Source of the DNA: Deltaproteobacteria bacterium
GTDB lineage: Bacteria; Desulfobacterota; Binatia; Binatales; Binataceae
Direction of reading: 5' to 3'
Length of the DNA: 61,353 nucleotides
Assembly (NCBI GenBank): GCA_021817345.1
Contig: JAKAVC010000156.1
Location: 1 to 61,353 of the forward strand
A program made the position numbers and the translations under genes. Position 1 is the stretch's first letter. The number at the start of each line of letters is the position of its first letter. Below are positions 258 through 48,218 of this stretch, in pieces. The notes below the pieces were generated by a model. It did not search any database. It saw only the letters and a list, made by a program, of their open reading frames with translations, and was not told the DNA's origin.

Positions 258-1700
258 TCAGGCACTCTTGGCCGCTTCCGCGGGCGGTCCGTCGGCGGGC
301 GCGGCTTCGAGCCGGTAACGCTGCATCTTGCGGTAAAGCGTGGAGAGGTGAATTCCGAGGATCTGCGCCGCACGCTCCTTGTTGCCGTCGACTTTCGCGA
401 GCACGCGGCGAATATGCTCGCGTTCGAGGTCTTCCAGCGTGAAGTTGGCGTCATCCGCTTCGGCGGGCGGCGCGGCGGTCGAGAGGCGAAGCTTGTCCGG
501 CAGGTCGTGGGAATGGATCACGTCGGTCTCCGCGAGAATCGCGGCCCGTTCGACCGTATTCTCCAGCTCGCGGACATTGCCGCGCCACTGGTAGTTGATA
601 AGCGCGCGCATCGCACCCTTCGAGAAGCGCATCCCGGTGCGACCGAGCGACTTCTCGACTTTCAGAAGGAAGTGATTGGCGAGCAGCGGAATGTCGTCCT
701 TGCGCTCGCGCAACGGGGGCAGCGTAATCGTGATCACATTGATCCGGTAAAGCAGCTCCTCGCGAAACCTCCCGGCCTTCACTTCGGCTTCGAGGTTTCG
801 GTTGGTGGCGCACAGCACGCGGACGTCGAATGAGATCGGCTCGTTTGAGCCGAGCGGATAGCATTCGCGCTCCTGCAGCGCGCGCAGCAGTTTTACCTGC
901 AGCGAGAGCGGCATCTCGCCGATTTCGTCGAAAAATATCGTGCCCTTGTCGGCCGCCTTGAGCAGTCCCACCTTGTCCTGCATCGCGCCGGTGAACGCGC
1001 CGCGCTTGTAACCGAACAGCTCGCTTTCGAGCAGGTTCTCGGGCAGCGCGCCGCAGTTGATCGGCAGGAAGCGTCCGTTGGCGCGCTCGGAGCTGAAATG
1101 GATCGCGCGCGCGACGAGCTCTTTTCCGGTTCCCGACTCGCCGGTGATGAGCACGCTGGAATCGGTGCGCGCAACCTTCTCCATGATGCGGAAGACCTGC
1201 TCGATAGCGTCGCTTTTGCCGATGATGCTCTCGAAGCGGTACTTCTCGCGAAGCTCGCGGCGCAGGAAGCGGTTCTCGCGGAACAGGGTTTTCGCGTTGA
1301 GCGCGTGATGGACCTGGTTCTTCAGATGGTCGTTGGCGAAGGGCTTGGTGATGTAATCGTACGCGCCCTGCTGCAGCGCCTGGACCGCGGATTCGACGCT
1401 CGCGTAGGCGGTCACGATTATCGCCATCACCTCCGGGTCGAGGTCGCGAATTCGCTTGAGCACCTCGAGTCCGTTGCCGCCGCCGCCGAGGTTGAGGTCG
1501 ATTATCGCGAGATCGATTTGTTCGCGCTCGAAAACTGAAAGCGCGATTTCCGCGCCCGGCGCTTCGAGCACGTCGTAGCCCTCGCCGCGCATCAGGTCGC
1601 GGATGATCTGCCGCATGAGCGGCTCGTCTTCGACCACGAGGACCCGGTAACGGCGTCCGCTCTCGGGCGCAAATGCGGCGGCGTTCTGTTCGGGACTCAT
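258..1700 (-). CDS. Sigma-54-dependent response regulator (NtrC family)
   Basis: 480 aa, three domains in order: receiver (VVEDEP at about 22-27, phospho-acceptor Asp68, Lys119 in YITKPF), AAA+ sigma-54 interaction domain (Walker A GESGTGKE at 187-194, the RNAP-contacting GAFTGA loop at 234-239, Walker B TIFFDE), and a Fis-type helix-turn-helix near the C-terminus ([19 protein letters not shown]). The kept GAFTGA motif means it should open sigma-54 promoters. Its ATG overlaps the upstream histidine kinase stop by 4 bases (ATGA), so the two are translationally coupled and very probably cognate. The target genes are not shown by the sequence; candidate -24/-12 promoters occur around 43911 and 44217. 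Confidence 0.95.
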
Positions 1701-6847: not shown

Positions 6848-7318
6848 CTAGCTGGCCAGCAGTTTGTGGAGCGACTCAAGGTCGCGGCGTACCTGCTGCA
6901 GAACCTGGCGCGCCTTGCCGCCGTCTTCGGCAGGATGCCCGTCCGGGGAGCTTTCGGACTTGCCGCTGGCGATGGGTTTTTGGACCGTCTCGCCGCCGCG
7001 CGCGAGCGCGTCGATCCCGTGCTCGCGGATGTACTTGTTTGCACCAGCGATCGTGAAGCCCTCGGCGTGGAGCAGGCGCTTGATGACCTGAAGGGTTTCG
7101 ATGTCGCGGGGATGGTAAAAGCGATGGCGCGAGCGGGTGTGCCTGGGTTTCAGAATCGGGAACTGGGTTTCCCAGAAGCGAAGAACGTAGGGCTCGACGC
7201 CCAGCGCGCGAGCGGCCTCGCCGATCTTGAGCCCGCGCTCCGGAATCGATTCAAGCGTTGGGGCAGGCTTTGAGGGTTTGCGGACTGATTTGCTGTTACG
7301 GCGCCTGGAGTCGGTCAT
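6848..7318 (-). CDS. MerR-family transcriptional regulator
   Basis: 156 aa. An N-terminal winged-helix of MerR type starts at about residue 28 (LKIGEAARALGVEPYVLRFWE), followed by HRFYHPRDIETLQVIKRLLH and AGANKYIREHG. The C-terminus is a Ser/Lys-rich linker plus a helix (ARQVLQQVRRDLESLHKLL) likely to dimerise. No effector domain or metal-binding Cys is present. It overlaps ihfA by 4 bases and ends the translation-gene operon. MerR-like genes next to ihfA are common in Gram-negative bacteria; the regulated target is not known from sequence. Confidence 0.9.
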   Translation of the reverse strand: MTDSRRRNSKSVRKPSKPAPTLESIPERGLKIGEAARALGVEPYVLRFWETQFPILKPRHTRSRHRFYHPRDIETLQVIKRLLHAEGFTIAGANKYIREHGIDALARGGETVQKPIASGKSESSPDGHPAEDGGKARQVLQQVRRDLESLHKLLAS

Positions 7319-7605
7319 GACCGCGCTTTGCCATCGTTCACGATATCCTTCAAAACCGGACTTGGTTTGAAGGTCAGCACACGCCGCGATTCAATCGTTA
7401 TCGCTTCCCCGGTCTGGGGATTGCGGCCCCGGCGTGCCCTTTTATCGTTTACCACAAAGCTGCCGAAGCCCGAAATCTTGACTTTCTGGCCGCTGCGCAA
7501 ACTGTCGCGAATAATCGCGAAGACCTCTTCGACGACTTCGCAGGCTTCCTTCTTCGAGGAGCCTACCCGCTCGTAGACGATGTCAACGAGATCGGCCTTG
7601 GTCAT
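7315..7605 (-). CDS. ihfA: Integration host factor subunit alpha
   Basis: 96 aa DNA-bending HU/IHF-family protein. The start at 7605 (MTKADLVDIVYERVG) matches family N-termini and places the usual VKISGFGSF motif and RRGRNPQTGE arm (with the DNA-intercalating Pro) at the expected positions. A longer in-frame extension to 7677 lies in the spacer after pheT and is unlikely to be translated. It sits between pheT and merR, as in many proteobacteria where ihfA is cotranscribed with pheST. IHF can help sigma-54 activators loop DNA, which is relevant to the NtrC regulator in this window. HU versus IHF-alpha is decided mainly by context and by the C-terminal VLKDIVN tail. Confidence 0.9.
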   Translation of the reverse strand: MTKADLVDIVYERVGSSKKEACEVVEEVFAIIRDSLRSGQKVKISGFGSFVVNDKRARRGRNPQTGEAITIESRRVLTFKPSPVLKDIVNDGKARS

Positions 7606-7654
7606 GCTAGGCGGCGTACTCTGCCCCACTCTTTCCGCTCGCTGCAAGCACGCT

Positions 7655-10081
7655 TTACTTTCTAAGCTCAGCTCCAAGACGGGCCCGCGCCTGTTCCATC
7701 AGGACGGCATGGGTCCGATTGACCTCTTCGTCGGTAAGCGTCCGGTCCGCGGCACGATAGCGCAAAGCGAGCGCGACGCTCTTCTTTCCGGGCGCGACCG
7801 CGTCTCCCTGGTAAACGTCGAAGACCTCAACGCTTTCGAGCAATGACGGGGCCATTTCACGGATCGTCTTCACAATCAAGTCCGCTGGAAATTCCCGCTC
7901 AAGGACCAAGGCAAGATCACGCCGCACCGCCGGGAACCTGGGCGGAGCCTCGATCGCCGCGTGCGGCGAAAGACCATAGGAAATGAGTCTGTCTAAGTCA
8001 ATCTCGCAGATAGTGCATTGTTGTTCGAGGCCGCGCTCCATTGCCTCTCGCGGATGCAGTTCGCCCACATAACCTGCCGGCTCATCGGCGAGCAGAATCA
8101 GCGCCGAACGCCCCGGATGCAGAAAATTGAGCTGATGCTCGCCGGTTGGCGCCTTGAACCGCACCCGCTCGGCAAGCCCGAGCGCGCCGAGATAGGTCTC
8201 GGCCACGCCCTTCATCGTAAAGAAGCCGGCCTTGACGCCCGGCTTTCCGATTTCGGCTAGCGCATATTCCCCGTAGGAGAGGGCGCCAAGATGGTATCGT
8301 TCGCTGACCGCGCTATTGACGCGCGCGAACACCTTCGCGATCTCGAAGGCATGAAACGCCGTTGCCTGGCGGTTCAGGTTGAAGCTGAGCGCGGCGAGCA
8401 ATCCCGGAACGAGGCTCCGGCGCATCTCGCGCAGCTCTTCTGAGAGCGGATTCTGCACCCGAAGCGGCTCGCCGTTGCCGATTCCGGTGAATTTCTCATT
8501 ATCCGCCGGCGCGATAAACGCGATCGTGTCGATCTCCGTGAAGCCCGCGCCGAGCATAACTTCGCGCGTGCCCTTGAAGAACTCGCGTTCGCGATTCGGT
8601 TCGGCGTAGGCAAACAGCCTCGGCGGCAGCGAGGCGGGAATCTCTTCCAGTCCGGAGAGCCGCGCGACTTCTTCCGCCAGGTCGGCGGCTTCGTTGAGGT
8701 CCGAGCGCCACGACGGCGGAGTCACGCTGAGCACGCCGCGAGTCTCCGCGCGTTTCACCGAGGCGCCGAGCGAAACCAGCCGCCGTTTCGTGTCGGCGGC
8801 GCTCAGCTCCACGCCGAGCAGCGCGCCCATCCGCTTCAGGTCGAGCGCGATTTCGCGCACCGGCGCGGGACGCGGCTCGAAGTCCGCAACGGCGCCTTCG
8901 GGGCGAGCCTCCGCGTGGCGCTTGAGCAGTTCCGCGACGCGCATCAACGCGGTGGTTTGCCCGGCGCGGTCGATACCGCGCTCGAAACGGTAACTCGCCT
9001 CGCTGCGAAGCCCGAGGCGGCGCGCGGTCTTCGCCACCGTCATCGGTTCGAAGTAGGCGCTTTCCAGCAGGATGGTCCGGGTCGAAAGGCCGACCTCGGA
9101 GTTGAGACCGCCCATCACGCCGGCTATCGCGAGCGGCTTCTCGGGATCGGCGATAACCAGGTCGGTGGATTCGAGCGCGCGCCGCACGTTGTCGAGCGTG
9201 ACGAACTCGCGATCGCTGCCGGCGTGGCGTACGACAATGGTGCTCGCGGCGATTTTATCGAGGTCGAAGGCGTGCAGCGGCTGACCCGTCTCGAGCATCA
9301 CGTAGTTGGTCGCGTCGACGACGTTGTTGAGCCCGCGCATCCCGCAAAGTTCCAGCCGCCGGCGCATCCATATGGGCGACGGCGCGACCCTGACGCCGGT
9401 CATCTTGAGCGCCGCATAGCGCGGGCACTGCTCCGGCGCGGCTATCCGGACCGCGAACGAGGACGAAGCGCCGTCGCCTTGGTGGCGTTCGACCGCGAGC
9501 GGGCGGATCCGCGGCGTGCGGAGCCGCACGCCGAACAGCGCGGCCACGTCGCGCGCGACCCCCAGAATCGAAAGAGCGTCGCCGCGGTTGGGAAGGATCG
9601 CGATATCCAGTACGACGTCGTCAAGCCCGAGATAATCGGCGAGCGGGGCGCCGAGCGGCGCGTCATCAGGGAGCGACAGGATTCCGTGATGGTCCTGCGA
9701 GAGGCCCAATTCGCGCTCCGAGCAGAGCATCCCTTCGGAGCGGACGCCGCGAATCACCGCGGCCTGCAACTCGGGCTCCGCGCCGAGCTTCGCCCCGACC
9801 CTGGCGAGCGCGGCGGTCATCCCGCTTCGCACGTTGGGCGCGCCACATACGACCGAGAAGCGGCCGGCCGGGCCCGCGTCCACCTGGCACAGGCTGAGCC
9901 GGTCGGCGTTGGGATGCTTTGCGGCTTCGAGCACGCGCGCGACCACTACGCCTGAGAACGAAGCACTGACCCGTTCGATATTCTCGACCTCAAGTCCGGC
10001 AACGGTCAGCCGGCGCGCGATTTCCTCGACGGGGGCGTCAACCGAGACGAATTCCTTTAGCCACTTGAGCGGTACTTTCAT
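7655..10081 (-). CDS. pheT: Phenylalanyl-tRNA synthetase beta subunit
   Basis: 808 aa, full length for bacterial PheT. Order: N-terminal domain (MKVPLKWLKEFV), EMAP/OB-type tRNA-binding domain at about 40-150 (VVVARVLEAAKHPNADRLSLC), B3/B4 editing domain (GMRGLNNVVDATNYVMLETGQPLHAFD), B5 domain, catalytic-like core (ERGIDRAGQ, NPLSEELREMRRSLVPGLL) and a C-terminal anticodon-binding FDX-ACB domain (AVRRDLALVLE). Its start overlaps the pheS stop by 4 bases. With PheS it forms the alpha2-beta2 enzyme that charges tRNA-Phe. Confidence 0.98.
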   Translation of the reverse strand: MKVPLKWLKEFVSVDAPVEEIARRLTVAGLEVENIERVSASFSGVVVARVLEAAKHPNADRLSLCQVDAGPAGRFSVVCGAPNVRSGMTAALARVGAKLGAEPELQAAVIRGVRSEGMLCSERELGLSQDHHGILSLPDDAPLGAPLADYLGLDDVVLDIAILPNRGDALSILGVARDVAALFGVRLRTPRIRPLAVERHQGDGASSSFAVRIAAPEQCPRYAALKMTGVRVAPSPIWMRRRLELCGMRGLNNVVDATNYVMLETGQPLHAFDLDKIAASTIVVRHAGSDREFVTLDNVRRALESTDLVIADPEKPLAIAGVMGGLNSEVGLSTRTILLESAYFEPMTVAKTARRLGLRSEASYRFERGIDRAGQTTALMRVAELLKRHAEARPEGAVADFEPRPAPVREIALDLKRMGALLGVELSAADTKRRLVSLGASVKRAETRGVLSVTPPSWRSDLNEAADLAEEVARLSGLEEIPASLPPRLFAYAEPNREREFFKGTREVMLGAGFTEIDTIAFIAPADNEKFTGIGNGEPLRVQNPLSEELREMRRSLVPGLLAALSFNLNRQATAFHAFEIAKVFARVNSAVSERYHLGALSYGEYALAEIGKPGVKAGFFTMKGVAETYLGALGLAERVRFKAPTGEHQLNFLHPGRSALILLADEPAGYVGELHPREAMERGLEQQCTICEIDLDRLISYGLSPHAAIEAPPRFPAVRRDLALVLEREFPADLIVKTIREMAPSLLESVEVFDVYQGDAVAPGKKSVALALRYRAADRTLTDEEVNRTHAVLMEQARARLGAELRK

Positions 10082-36952: not shown

Positions 36953-37948
36953 ATGTCCAACGAGAGGACCGAAGTCCATACCCCGCTCGACAGCATCTTT
37001 CACTGGAACTACGAGGTTAAGTTTCCCCAGATCGATCGCCTGTACGAAAACGCCAAGCGCGATCAGTGGAACGGCAGCACGACGCTCAACTGGGAGCAGC
37101 CGATCGAGCGCGAAGTGCTCGACATGTCGCAGATGCCGATGTTCCAGACCGAGATTTATCGCTCGCTGAGCGCCGGGAAGAAGGAAGAGCTCGCGCGCAA
37201 GTTCGCGGCCTGGCGGCTCTCGCAATTCCTGCACGGAGAGCAGGGCGCGCTGATGGTGTGCGGGCAACTGGTCGACGCGGTGCCCGACCTCGATTCCAAG
37301 ATGTGCGCCGCCGCGCAGGTGATGGACGAGGCGCGCCACGTCGAGGTCTTCCGCCGCTACATCACCAAGCTCGACAAGATCTATCCGATCGATCCGACGC
37401 TCGACCGTCTGCTGCGCACCGTGATAGAGGCCGAGCGATGGGAGCCGAAGTACGTCGGGATGCAGATTGTCGCCGAGGGGCTTGCGATCGCGGCCTTCCG
37501 CTTCATGCAGCGCGAGTCAAACGACGCGCTGCTGAAGGAGCTTCTCGAATACGTGCTCAAGGACGAATCGCGCCACGTCGGTTTCGGCGTGCTCGCGCTT
37601 CGCGACGCGGTGCAGAAACTCTCCGGCAAGGACAAGAAGGAGCTCGAGGAGTTCGCGTTTGCCGCGTGCGACATGATGGTCACGAAGATCGTTGACGGCG
37701 AGCCGAAGGACGGATTCCTCTCGGGCGTTTCGGTGTTCGAGGAGGTCGGCATCTCAAGCGGCGATATCGAAGAGGAGATGAAGCGCAATCCCCAGTGGGC
37801 CGCCGCCGAGCAGGACATGGAGCGCAAGTTCAACTCTTTCCTGTTCGTCGACACGATCGTGCCCAACCTGAAGCATCTCGATCTGCTCAACCAGCGCACC
37901 GAACCGTGGTATCGCGAACTCGGAGTACTCGACATGTACGCGGGCTGA
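36953..37948 (+). CDS. AurF/R2-like diiron protein (ferritin-like fold)
   Basis: 331 aa. Two copies of the diiron signature are exact: Glu of LHGEQ then 28 residues then DEARH, and Glu of VAEGL then 28 residues then DESRH. This EX28DExRH pair is the pattern of AurF-type N-oxygenases and ribonucleotide-reductase-R2-like oxidases, so an O2-using oxidase or oxygenase is likely; the substrate is unknown. GGAGG precedes the ATG. It is coupled to the upstream TetR gene and ends at a strong terminator. Confidence 0.85.
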   Translation: MSNERTEVHTPLDSIFHWNYEVKFPQIDRLYENAKRDQWNGSTTLNWEQPIEREVLDMSQMPMFQTEIYRSLSAGKKEELARKFAAWRLSQFLHGEQGALMVCGQLVDAVPDLDSKMCAAAQVMDEARHVEVFRRYITKLDKIYPIDPTLDRLLRTVIEAERWEPKYVGMQIVAEGLAIAAFRFMQRESNDALLKELLEYVLKDESRHVGFGVLALRDAVQKLSGKDKKELEEFAFAACDMMVTKIVDGEPKDGFLSGVSVFEEVGISSGDIEEEMKRNPQWAAAEQDMERKFNSFLFVDTIVPNLKHLDLLNQRTEPWYRELGVLDMYAG

Positions 37949-43869: not shown

Positions 43870-43910
43870 GAGCGAACTCTCCCCACTGGCGATTCTGATG
43901 CTGCGCTGCG

Positions 43911-43926
43911 AGCATTTGCCATGCCA
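43911..43926 (-). promoter_or_regulatory. Candidate sigma-54 promoter for the leftward diiron gene
   Basis: Minus strand TGGCATGGCAAATGCT: GG at -24 and GC at -12 with exact spacing of the TGGCAC-N5-TTGC consensus (T to A at the first base of the -12 half). The predicted transcript start is about 30 bases before the ATG at 43869. Confidence 0.55.
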
Positions 43927-44216
43927 TTGCCGGTCTCCGAAAAATAGCGCGATACGGCGAAAGAAATTTCTTCGCCAAGCGGTGCGCCTGGCGCGCGAAT
44001 CGGTCGCGCAAAGCGGAAGCCGCGGCTGGGAATTCACATGGAAATATCGGGCAGATGTGGCGATCCGATTCTGTATCCGAAGGACGCGATTGAATCCTTT
44101 GGAAGCAAAAGAGGAAGCGGCCGTCGTCGTCCCAAAGGCTCTTTTTTGACAGCGTGTGTGATTTTCCGAGCCATGTTATCCGCCTTTCAACAGGCGATGC
44201 CCGATGGCCGACGCAC

Positions 44217-44232
44217 TGGCATGAGGGGTGCT
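44217..44232 (+). promoter_or_regulatory. Candidate sigma-54 promoter for the rightward diiron gene
   Basis: TGGCATGAGGGGTGCT: GG and GC elements with the same spacing as the oppositely oriented copy at 43911-43926, sharing TGGCATG and TGCT. The predicted start is about 33 bases before the ATG at 44276. Confidence 0.55.
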
Positions 44233-44275
44233 CCCTAACGGGCGTAAGGTTGCCATCACGGGGAGGCTTGGCTAG

Positions 44276-45381: not shown

Positions 45382-45846
45382 ATGCTGTTTCCATCGGTTG
45401 AGTGGTTTCAGGCGCTGTGCAACGCGGCCAACGCGAATCCCGAGCGCTTTCGCAGGCTTGGCACTGTGGACCTCGTCCTGGTAGCCAAAATCGATTATCC
45501 GCATCAGAGCAGGCTGTTCGAAATCGTATTCTCCGGCTATCACTGCGCCGGCGTGCGCGAAGTATCGAGCACCAGGGCGGCGCGCGAGGGCGCGGTCATT
45601 CTCGAAGGCCCGTTCGAGGCGTGGAAAGAGATGGTCGCCAACATCAAGGCCAACGGACAGGCGGACCTCGCCCATACGCTCAATACCCTCACGCTTTACG
45701 ACACCCCGATGCGTGTTTGGGCCGAGAGCCAGCTCGATACCGACCTGTTCTACCGTTACCAGCAGAATCTGCAGGAGTTCTTCGACTCGGCATCGCATTT
45801 CGAAACCGAATTCGCCGGACCGGAGGCCACTTCGGTGTATAATTGA
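45382..45846 (+). CDS. SCP2 sterol-binding-like domain protein
   Basis: 154 aa, no signal peptide. The pattern LFPSVEWFQALCNAANANPERFRRLG followed by alternating strands (DLVLVAKIDYP, LFEIVFSGYHCAGVREV), GAVILEGPFEAWKEMV and a C-terminal helix pair reads like a small SCP2 lipid-binding fold. AGGAGG lies upstream of the ATG, 26 bp after the diiron gene, so it is probably cotranscribed. It may bind a hydrophobic substrate or product of the diiron enzyme; that is inference. Confidence 0.65.
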   Translation: MLFPSVEWFQALCNAANANPERFRRLGTVDLVLVAKIDYPHQSRLFEIVFSGYHCAGVREVSSTRAAREGAVILEGPFEAWKEMVANIKANGQADLAHTLNTLTLYDTPMRVWAESQLDTDLFYRYQQNLQEFFDSASHFETEFAGPEATSVYN

Positions 45847-46826: not shown

Positions 46827-48218
46827 ATGGCGCTTTGGAAACCCGATCCTACCTTTTATCCGTCGTCACGGATGGCGACGGCTGCGCCGCCCGAAACGCT
46901 CGCGTACATCGTCGCGCTGAATCCGACTCCGTCGAACGGAAGGCATGACGCACTATGCGTGCTGGACCTCGATCCGAAATCGAGCACCTACGGAAGGCTG
47001 GTCGGGCAGGTCGAGATGCCGAACGTGGGCGACGAGCTTCATCATTTTGGCTGGAACGCATGCAGCGCCGCGCTCTGTCCCTACGCCCCTCATCCTCATG
47101 TTGAACGCCGATACCTGCTGGTGCCGGGGCTTCGCTCGTCGCGCATCCATGTGATCGATACCAAGCCCGATCCGCGCAATCCGCGTATCGTGCGCGTGAT
47201 CGAGGCCGAGGAGATCGCCTCGCGCGCCGGTTACAGCCGCCCGCATACCATTCATTGCGGCCCCGACGCGATTTACGTAAGCGCGCTCGGAGCGCCGAAC
47301 GGCGAAGGCCCGGGCGGAATCTTCCTGCTCGACTGCGAGACCTTCGACGTGCTTGGGCGATGGGAAATCGATCGCGGGCCGCAGTATTTCGCTTACGATT
47401 TCTGGTGGAACCTGGGCCACGACGTCCTGGTAACGAGCGAATGGGGCACGCCCAACATGTTCGAGAAAGGGCTTGTTCCCGAACTGCTGCTCGGCGAGAA
47501 ATACGGACGCGCCGTCCATGTCTGGGATCTCAAGCGGCGCACCCATGTCCGCAAACTCGACGCGGGCGAAGGCTATCAGCTCGTCTTCGAGCTAAGGCCG
47601 GCGCACGATCCGACCAAGGCCTACGGCTTCGTAAACTGCGTGCTCTCGACAAAAGACCTTTCGGGCTCGATCTGGGTCTGGCACCGCGCGAACGGCGACT
47701 GGACGATGAAGAAGATCATCGACATCCCGGCCGAGCCGGCCTCTGAAGACCAGCTCCCACCGATGCTCAAGGGATTCAAGGCGGTGCCGCCTCTTCCGAC
47801 CGATATCAACCTGAGCCTTGATGACCGTTTCCTTTACGTCTCGTGCTGGGGCACGGGCGACATGAAGCAGTACGACCTAAGCGATCCGTTTAATCCGAAG
47901 CTGACCGGCTCGGTGCGTCTCGGCGGCATCGTATCCCACGCGCCGCATCCGAAGTCAGGGCCGCTTAACGGCGCGATGCAGATGGTCGAAGTCAGCCGCG
48001 ACGGCAGACGGATATACGTCAGCAACTCGCTCTACAGCGCGATCGACGAGCAGTTCTATCCCGAAGGAATCAAGGGATGGGTTGCGAAGCTCGACGCAAA
48101 TCCGTCGGGCGGGCTCGCGCTCGATCCGAACTTCCTGGTCCAGTTCGAGCATCTGCGACCGCATCAGATTCGCCTGGAGGGCGGCGACTGCTCGTCTGAT
48201 TCGTTCTGCTATCCGTGA
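46827..48218 (+). CDS. Selenium-binding protein family (SBP56 / methanethiol oxidase)
   Basis: 463 aa, normal length. Diagnostic runs: GWNACSAALCPYAPHPH with the conserved Cys, RRYLLVPGLRSSRIHVIDTKPDPRNP, YSRPHTIHCGPDAIYVSALG, FLLDCETF, and FAYDFWWNLGHDVLVTSEWGTP with His and Trp residues seen in methanethiol oxidases. MtoX-type members oxidise methanethiol to formaldehyde, H2S and H2O2 and are copper proteins. Here no signal peptide is seen, so the location may be cytoplasmic. Its stop overlaps the next gene start (GTGA). Confidence 0.93.
   Translation: MALWKPDPTFYPSSRMATAAPPETLAYIVALNPTPSNGRHDALCVLDLDPKSSTYGRLVGQVEMPNVGDELHHFGWNACSAALCPYAPHPHVERRYLLVPGLRSSRIHVIDTKPDPRNPRIVRVIEAEEIASRAGYSRPHTIHCGPDAIYVSALGAPNGEGPGGIFLLDCETFDVLGRWEIDRGPQYFAYDFWWNLGHDVLVTSEWGTPNMFEKGLVPELLLGEKYGRAVHVWDLKRRTHVRKLDAGEGYQLVFELRPAHDPTKAYGFVNCVLSTKDLSGSIWVWHRANGDWTMKKIIDIPAEPASEDQLPPMLKGFKAVPPLPTDINLSLDDRFLYVSCWGTGDMKQYDLSDPFNPKLTGSVRLGGIVSHAPHPKSGPLNGAMQMVEVSRDGRRIYVSNSLYSAIDEQFYPEGIKGWVAKLDANPSGGLALDPNFLVQFEHLRPHQIRLEGGDCSSDSFCYP

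Follow-up and report, generated by a model that had tools for sequence, protein, structure and literature searches.

Two predicted outward-facing sigma-54 promoters between head-to-head diiron oxygenase-like genes of different ancestry

The DNA stretch analysed in this study is 61,353 nucleotides long and is referred to as the window throughout. Its region 43870-44275 most probably regulates transcription in both directions: two head-to-head genes, which encode oxidase- or oxygenase-like diiron proteins of the R2/VlmB fold, would each have a sigma-54 promoter of their own there. In the proposed mechanism, sigma-54 RNA polymerase would wait at each −24/−12 element, and a signal-activated enhancer-binding protein, the gene of which is probably located elsewhere, would bind in the 290-bp spacer and open each promoter for transcription. 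Each promoter would be the ancestral promoter of its own gene, and the two diiron genes would be old paralogues or xenologues set back to back in this lineage. The features of the region are listed in Table 1.

Table 1. Features in and around the divergent region (positions within the window)
Feature	Position	Strand	Remark
Diiron carboxylate protein, minus copy, 359 aa	42790..43869	-	Family-type copy
Shine-Dalgarno GGGGAG of minus gene	43879..43884	-	9 nt 5' of ATG; read from sequence
Sigma-54 −24/−12 element TGGCATGGCAAATGCT of minus diiron gene	43911..43926	-	Predicted start 43900
Spacer of 290 bp separating the two −24 elements	43927..44216	.	Activator site(s) expected
Near-palindrome GGCGAAAGAAATTTCTTCGCC	43956..43976	.	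10-bp arms, one bulged A; not conserved in orthologues
Imperfect inverted repeat TCCGAAGGA-N10-TCCTTTGGA	44076..44103	.	About midway between promoters; weak enhancer-site candidate; chance level in shuffles
Sigma-54 −24/−12 element TGGCATGAGGGGTGCT of plus diiron gene	44217..44232	+	Predicted start 44243
Shine-Dalgarno GGGGAGG of plus gene	44260..44266	+	9 nt 5' of ATG; read from sequence
Diiron carboxylate protein, plus copy, 359 aa	44276..45355	+	Groups with L032/G042
SCP2-like protein, 154 aa, probable operon partner of plus diiron gene	45382..45846	+	Conserved directly 3' of diiron orthologues

The two −24/−12 elements had been pointed out in an earlier note on this DNA, and both their positions and their spacing were confirmed: GG-N10-GC is exact in both elements, which point outward. 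The ATGs, the choice of which matches the orthologue alignment for both diiron copies, are located 57-59 bp downstream of the elements, and the leaders measured from the predicted starts are about 31 nt (minus) and 33 nt (plus), near-equal as had been noted (about 30 nt). Scoring was performed with an approximate consensus matrix made for the present work, on which the consensus TGGCACG-N4-TTGCW scores 20.1. Both elements score 15.1 and rank above every other GG-N10-GC site of the 61-kb window, both strands counted, the next ones scoring 14.0 and 13.8. Both depart from the TTGC box by lacking its first T (A-TGCT and G-TGCT), which counts against the sigma-54 reading. A genome-wide promoter scan with the single pattern TGGCAYGN5TGCW gave 12 matches in the 3.54-Mb genome versus 10 for the reversed control pattern, indicating that isolated matches carry little weight. 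Outward-facing pairs of this pattern at most 300 bp apart do carry weight, because two were observed genome-wide against about 0.003 expected by chance. The second outward pair of sigma-54-like sites, TGGCACGCGCGATGCT and TGGCACGCAGGATGCT, is located at C149:46754-47009 of the source genome G000 (L150:6755-7010; pair C149:46754/46994), with an FBPase_3 gene on one side and a small unknown ORF on the other.

The gene for sigma-54 itself, the absence of which had been named as an argument against these promoters, was found in the source genome (rpoN; Sigma54_DBD E 3e-63) and in 25 of the 25 other genomes searched, all 21 loci L032-L052 among them. For the scan of relatives that had been proposed, the two diiron genes of the window and their orthologues were collected by whole-genome and contig searches into a set of 23, and a site was counted when the −24/−12 score reached at least 12 bits within 300 bp upstream of the gene. 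Such a site was detected for 15 of the 23 genes (two window copies counted). In the nearest clade, consisting of the two window copies and L032-L037, it was present in 8/8, and every gene carries TGGCA(T/C)(G/A)-N5-TGC at 57-111 bp 5' of its start. Judged by p-values that are indicative only, because the counts share descent and are not independent, this level is far above the background of 23 in 1110 300-bp windows (2.1%; binomial 2e-20, uncorrected for relatedness), above the 0/19 of a control, the small-d1-d2 operon that encodes paralogous diiron proteins in the same class (Fisher 8e-6), and above the 1/57 of a second control, relatives at 48-57% identity mostly from Actinomycetota and Chloroflexota (Fisher 1e-9). 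The earlier proposal of two sigma-54 promoters before divergent diiron paralogues thus gains support from the presence of rpoN, from the conservation of the elements at orthologues, and from their absence from the controls. Within the remaining upstream DNA, similarity of either window copy to any orthologue was not beyond chance, suggesting that the −24/−12 element is what selection kept. The other 8 of the 23 genes are without a recognisable site, and loss of rpoN fails to explain them, since all those genomes carry rpoN; sigma-54 control is therefore not universal in this diiron family. Overall, the predicted sigma-54 control of the family is both old and well supported.

The two diiron proteins are equal in length and 74% identical. 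The ligands E144, E178xxH181, E228, and E258xxH261, representing the full diiron set, are kept in both copies in the alignment, and the order E, ExxH, E, ExxH on a four-helix bundle was recognised in both by alignment and is backed by a fold match. With dN of 0.18 against dS of about 1.1 between the copies, both appear to be under purifying selection. In Pfam and NCBIfam, the matches to R2-type families of diiron proteins were all sub-threshold, and the cut-off for the R2-like ligand-binding oxidase (NCBIfam NF006200) was not reached (25 bits vs 194). The predicted structure (pLDDT 88), with TM of about 0.5 to the best structural matches, resembles the ferritin/R2-like helical fold with ExxH...ExxH ligands of VlmB azoxy synthase, R2-like ligand-binding oxidase, and aldehyde-deformylating oxygenase (6d9f, 8wvr, 4ac8), from which the window proteins are set apart by an identity of about 20%, by this level of TM, and by their position under the family cut-offs. 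An AurF-type N-oxygenase-like diiron gene is also located in the window (36953-37948). In literature searches, neither this family of diiron proteins nor its regulation was the subject of any paper found, and the main Binatota genome paper makes no mention of diiron, ferritin, or sigma factors. Binatota is taken to be the class concerned, since G103, listed as belonging to it, is an identical record to L052, a Binatota genome.

Homologues of the 154-aa gene come after nearly all diiron orthologues; in the window it is located downstream of the plus copy only, and the minus copy is without this partner. No match of the 154-aa protein to any sequence family was detected. Its structural model (pLDDT 93) has a predicted fold like those of the SCP2 and UbiJ-type lipid carriers (1c44, 6h6o), the match being weak (E about 0.005, TM about 0.45-0.57). 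The reaction is probably the oxidation of a hydrophobic substrate supplied by this SCP2-like partner. About 1 kb past the plus operon, the window carries an SBP56/methanethiol-oxidase-like gene (46827-48218).

Among the other readings of the region, a single activator at one spacer site might fire both promoters, as FhlA does at hyc/hyp, and the isoenzymes would then be made simultaneously. We regard this as a serious possibility and yet lean against it. With 290 bp between the elements, a site in the middle would lie 110-180 bp from either promoter, a usual distance for an enhancer, and the imperfect inverted repeat of Table 1 is located there; the sister elements have sequence in common, a second outward pair exists in the source genome, and hycA/hypA provides a precedent. 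In contrast, no conserved enhancer site was recognised and the dyads do not exceed chance, none of the other genomes among the 148 of the class showed the arrangement, and the two copies, differing in phylogenetic origin, may answer to different activators, of which the source genome has at least 15 that are full-length-like. The near-palindrome, for which a role as shared enhancer had been suggested, is real as a structure; as a shared enhancer it was rejected, because it is not conserved, is separated from the minus −24 element by just 30 bp, and belongs to a region whose dyads are at chance level. In shuffles, which covered ungapped repeats, inverted repeats as strong as those of the region were common. 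No recurring motif was found among the orthologue leaders, and no gene for an enhancer-binding protein was found in the flanks covered at 80 related loci.

The earlier note had also drawn attention to a GAFTGA sigma-54 activator gene and an IHF/HU-type gene, and both are present in the window (258-1700 and 7315-7677, respectively). The activator was found in 13/13 same-family genomes tested, most of them without these diiron genes, and in G042 and G067, in which the diiron genes are present, its relatives were only 44% identical or there were none at threshold, leaving no recognisable orthologue. The activator is therefore a core regulator of the family, and was rejected as a dedicated diiron regulator. 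Another sigma-54 activator, the N-terminus of which is weakly protoglobin-like, is encoded in an operon of the source genome together with an SCP2-like protein and diiron proteins d1 and d2 (L151:3839-8332; G000 C152). Most metal ligands are lost in this d2, suggesting an active/inactive d1-d2 heterodimer. The small-d1-d2 arrangement is shared by at least 18 genomes of the class, and its linked activator only within the genus of the source genome. As this linkage is confined to one genus and operons of the C152 type carry no sigma-54 site in the 19 cases above, the globin-like activator gained no support as a candidate regulator and was set aside. Five related activators of the source genome (G000 C51, C66, C149, C45, and C152) share the same type of N-terminal sensor region, with 53-63% identity to that of C152. 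Sigma-54-like sites were also observed 5' of luciferase-type monooxygenase genes (L152:5851-7329 and L155:3903-5139, L155 being named from sequence only), one of them accompanied by a sigma-54 activator domain (C134:4200-4706).

It is unlikely that the −24/−12 matches arose by chance and that sigma-70 promoters transcribe both genes. Two weak sigma-70-like matches do occur in the spacer (9/12 positions each, 0.3 expected), one directed at each gene, and the strict sigma-54 pattern is genome-wide no commoner than its control. Chance would have to account, however, for conservation at 15/23 against 2%, 0/19, and 1/57, and for the two best sites in 61 kb being located at the exact promoter position on both sides.

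The two separate sigma-54 promoters are accompanied by separate histories of the two genes. In the phylogenetic tree, the minus copy falls among L033-L036, which are single-copy genes of the same family (support 100/99), and its identity to both L034 and L036 is 83%; the plus copy groups with L032, from another family (support 89/78), to which it is 84% identical. The diiron gene was found in 12 of 148 genomes of the class, and two copies in one of the 148, the source genome only. Together with the dS of about 1.1, these observations indicate that, as far as can be read from sequence, the pair is a lineage-specific juxtaposition of two old paralogues or xenologues, each with its own ancestral promoter, and that the promoter was not copied. 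The differing affinities of the two copies might also be expected if genes of two different organisms had been joined in one contig of this draft genome, and G001, a genome of the same genus, has the flanks on separate contigs, none spanning the region; such an assembly artefact is improbable, since both flanks match G001 at 83-88% and both GC content and GC3 are even over the junction. As its contigs end at the region, G001 says nothing on an empty site. Least probable of all, and rejected, is a recent inverted duplication in which one gene was copied with its promoter, which would give the mirror-image promoters a single origin: equal-length proteins at 74% identity and the common TGGCATG and TGCT of both elements are in its favour, but it is contradicted by the tree, which puts the copies in separate clades, by leaders dissimilar outside the elements, by the dS value, and by the SCP2-like partner gene downstream of the plus copy only. 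The mirror image described before therefore holds as a pair of outward, matching elements and fails as an inverted duplication.

The earlier note had considered paralogous oxygenase-like enzymes under one bidirectional sigma-54 switch to be unusual, but a bidirectional sigma-54 switch has a precedent. In Salmonella and E. coli, the hycA/hypA sigma-54 promoters face outward from one intergenic region under a single activator, FhlA (PMC3844500), and hycA/hypA is listed as a bidirectional spacer (PMC8743547). The hycA element TGGCATGGAAAATGCT is nearly the same as the minus element of the window, and the hypA element is TGGCATAAATATTGCT. The two systems differ in three respects: the hyc and hyp operons are unrelated in sequence whereas the genes of the window are paralogues, the hyp operon carries the gene for the known activator at its end whereas no linked activator was found here, and the promoters are separated by about 115 bp in hyc/hyp versus 290 bp here. 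Diiron oxygenases under sigma-54 control are likewise known, among them the DmpR-type phenol hydroxylases. For the soluble methane monooxygenase genes mmoXYBZ (MmoR/sigma-54), a −24/−12 promoter is present upstream of every sequenced mmoX, so that diiron oxygenase genes stand behind such a promoter in both systems (PMC5874634). That enzyme is a multicomponent one with a linked activator gene, mmoR; the window proteins belong to another diiron subfamily, with no activator linked and no reductase gene adjoining. Neither the combination of Binatota and sigma-54 nor bidirectional sigma-54 promoters as a topic yielded any paper in literature searches. Bidirectional sigma-54 regions and sigma-54-driven diiron oxygenases are thus already known, and new here is the prediction of such control for an uncharacterised diiron/SCP2-like gene pair.

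A wider picture, which we put forward tentatively and consider rather doubtful as a whole, is that a diiron/SCP2-like oxygenase system of Binatota-class and Myxococcota-labelled genomes would be under sigma-54 'demand' control, and that in this lineage two isoenzymes of different ancestry would be joined under one enhancer in the 290-bp spacer that turns on the two together. If sigma-54 controls these genes, their induction should be tight and depend on a specific signal, as in the methane and phenol monooxygenases. The two separate promoters predicted here give access to the regulation of a widespread family of diiron proteins, with the activator and its inducer as what to look for, and they illustrate a route by which genes of different origin may enter a common bidirectional region, each keeping its own promoter.
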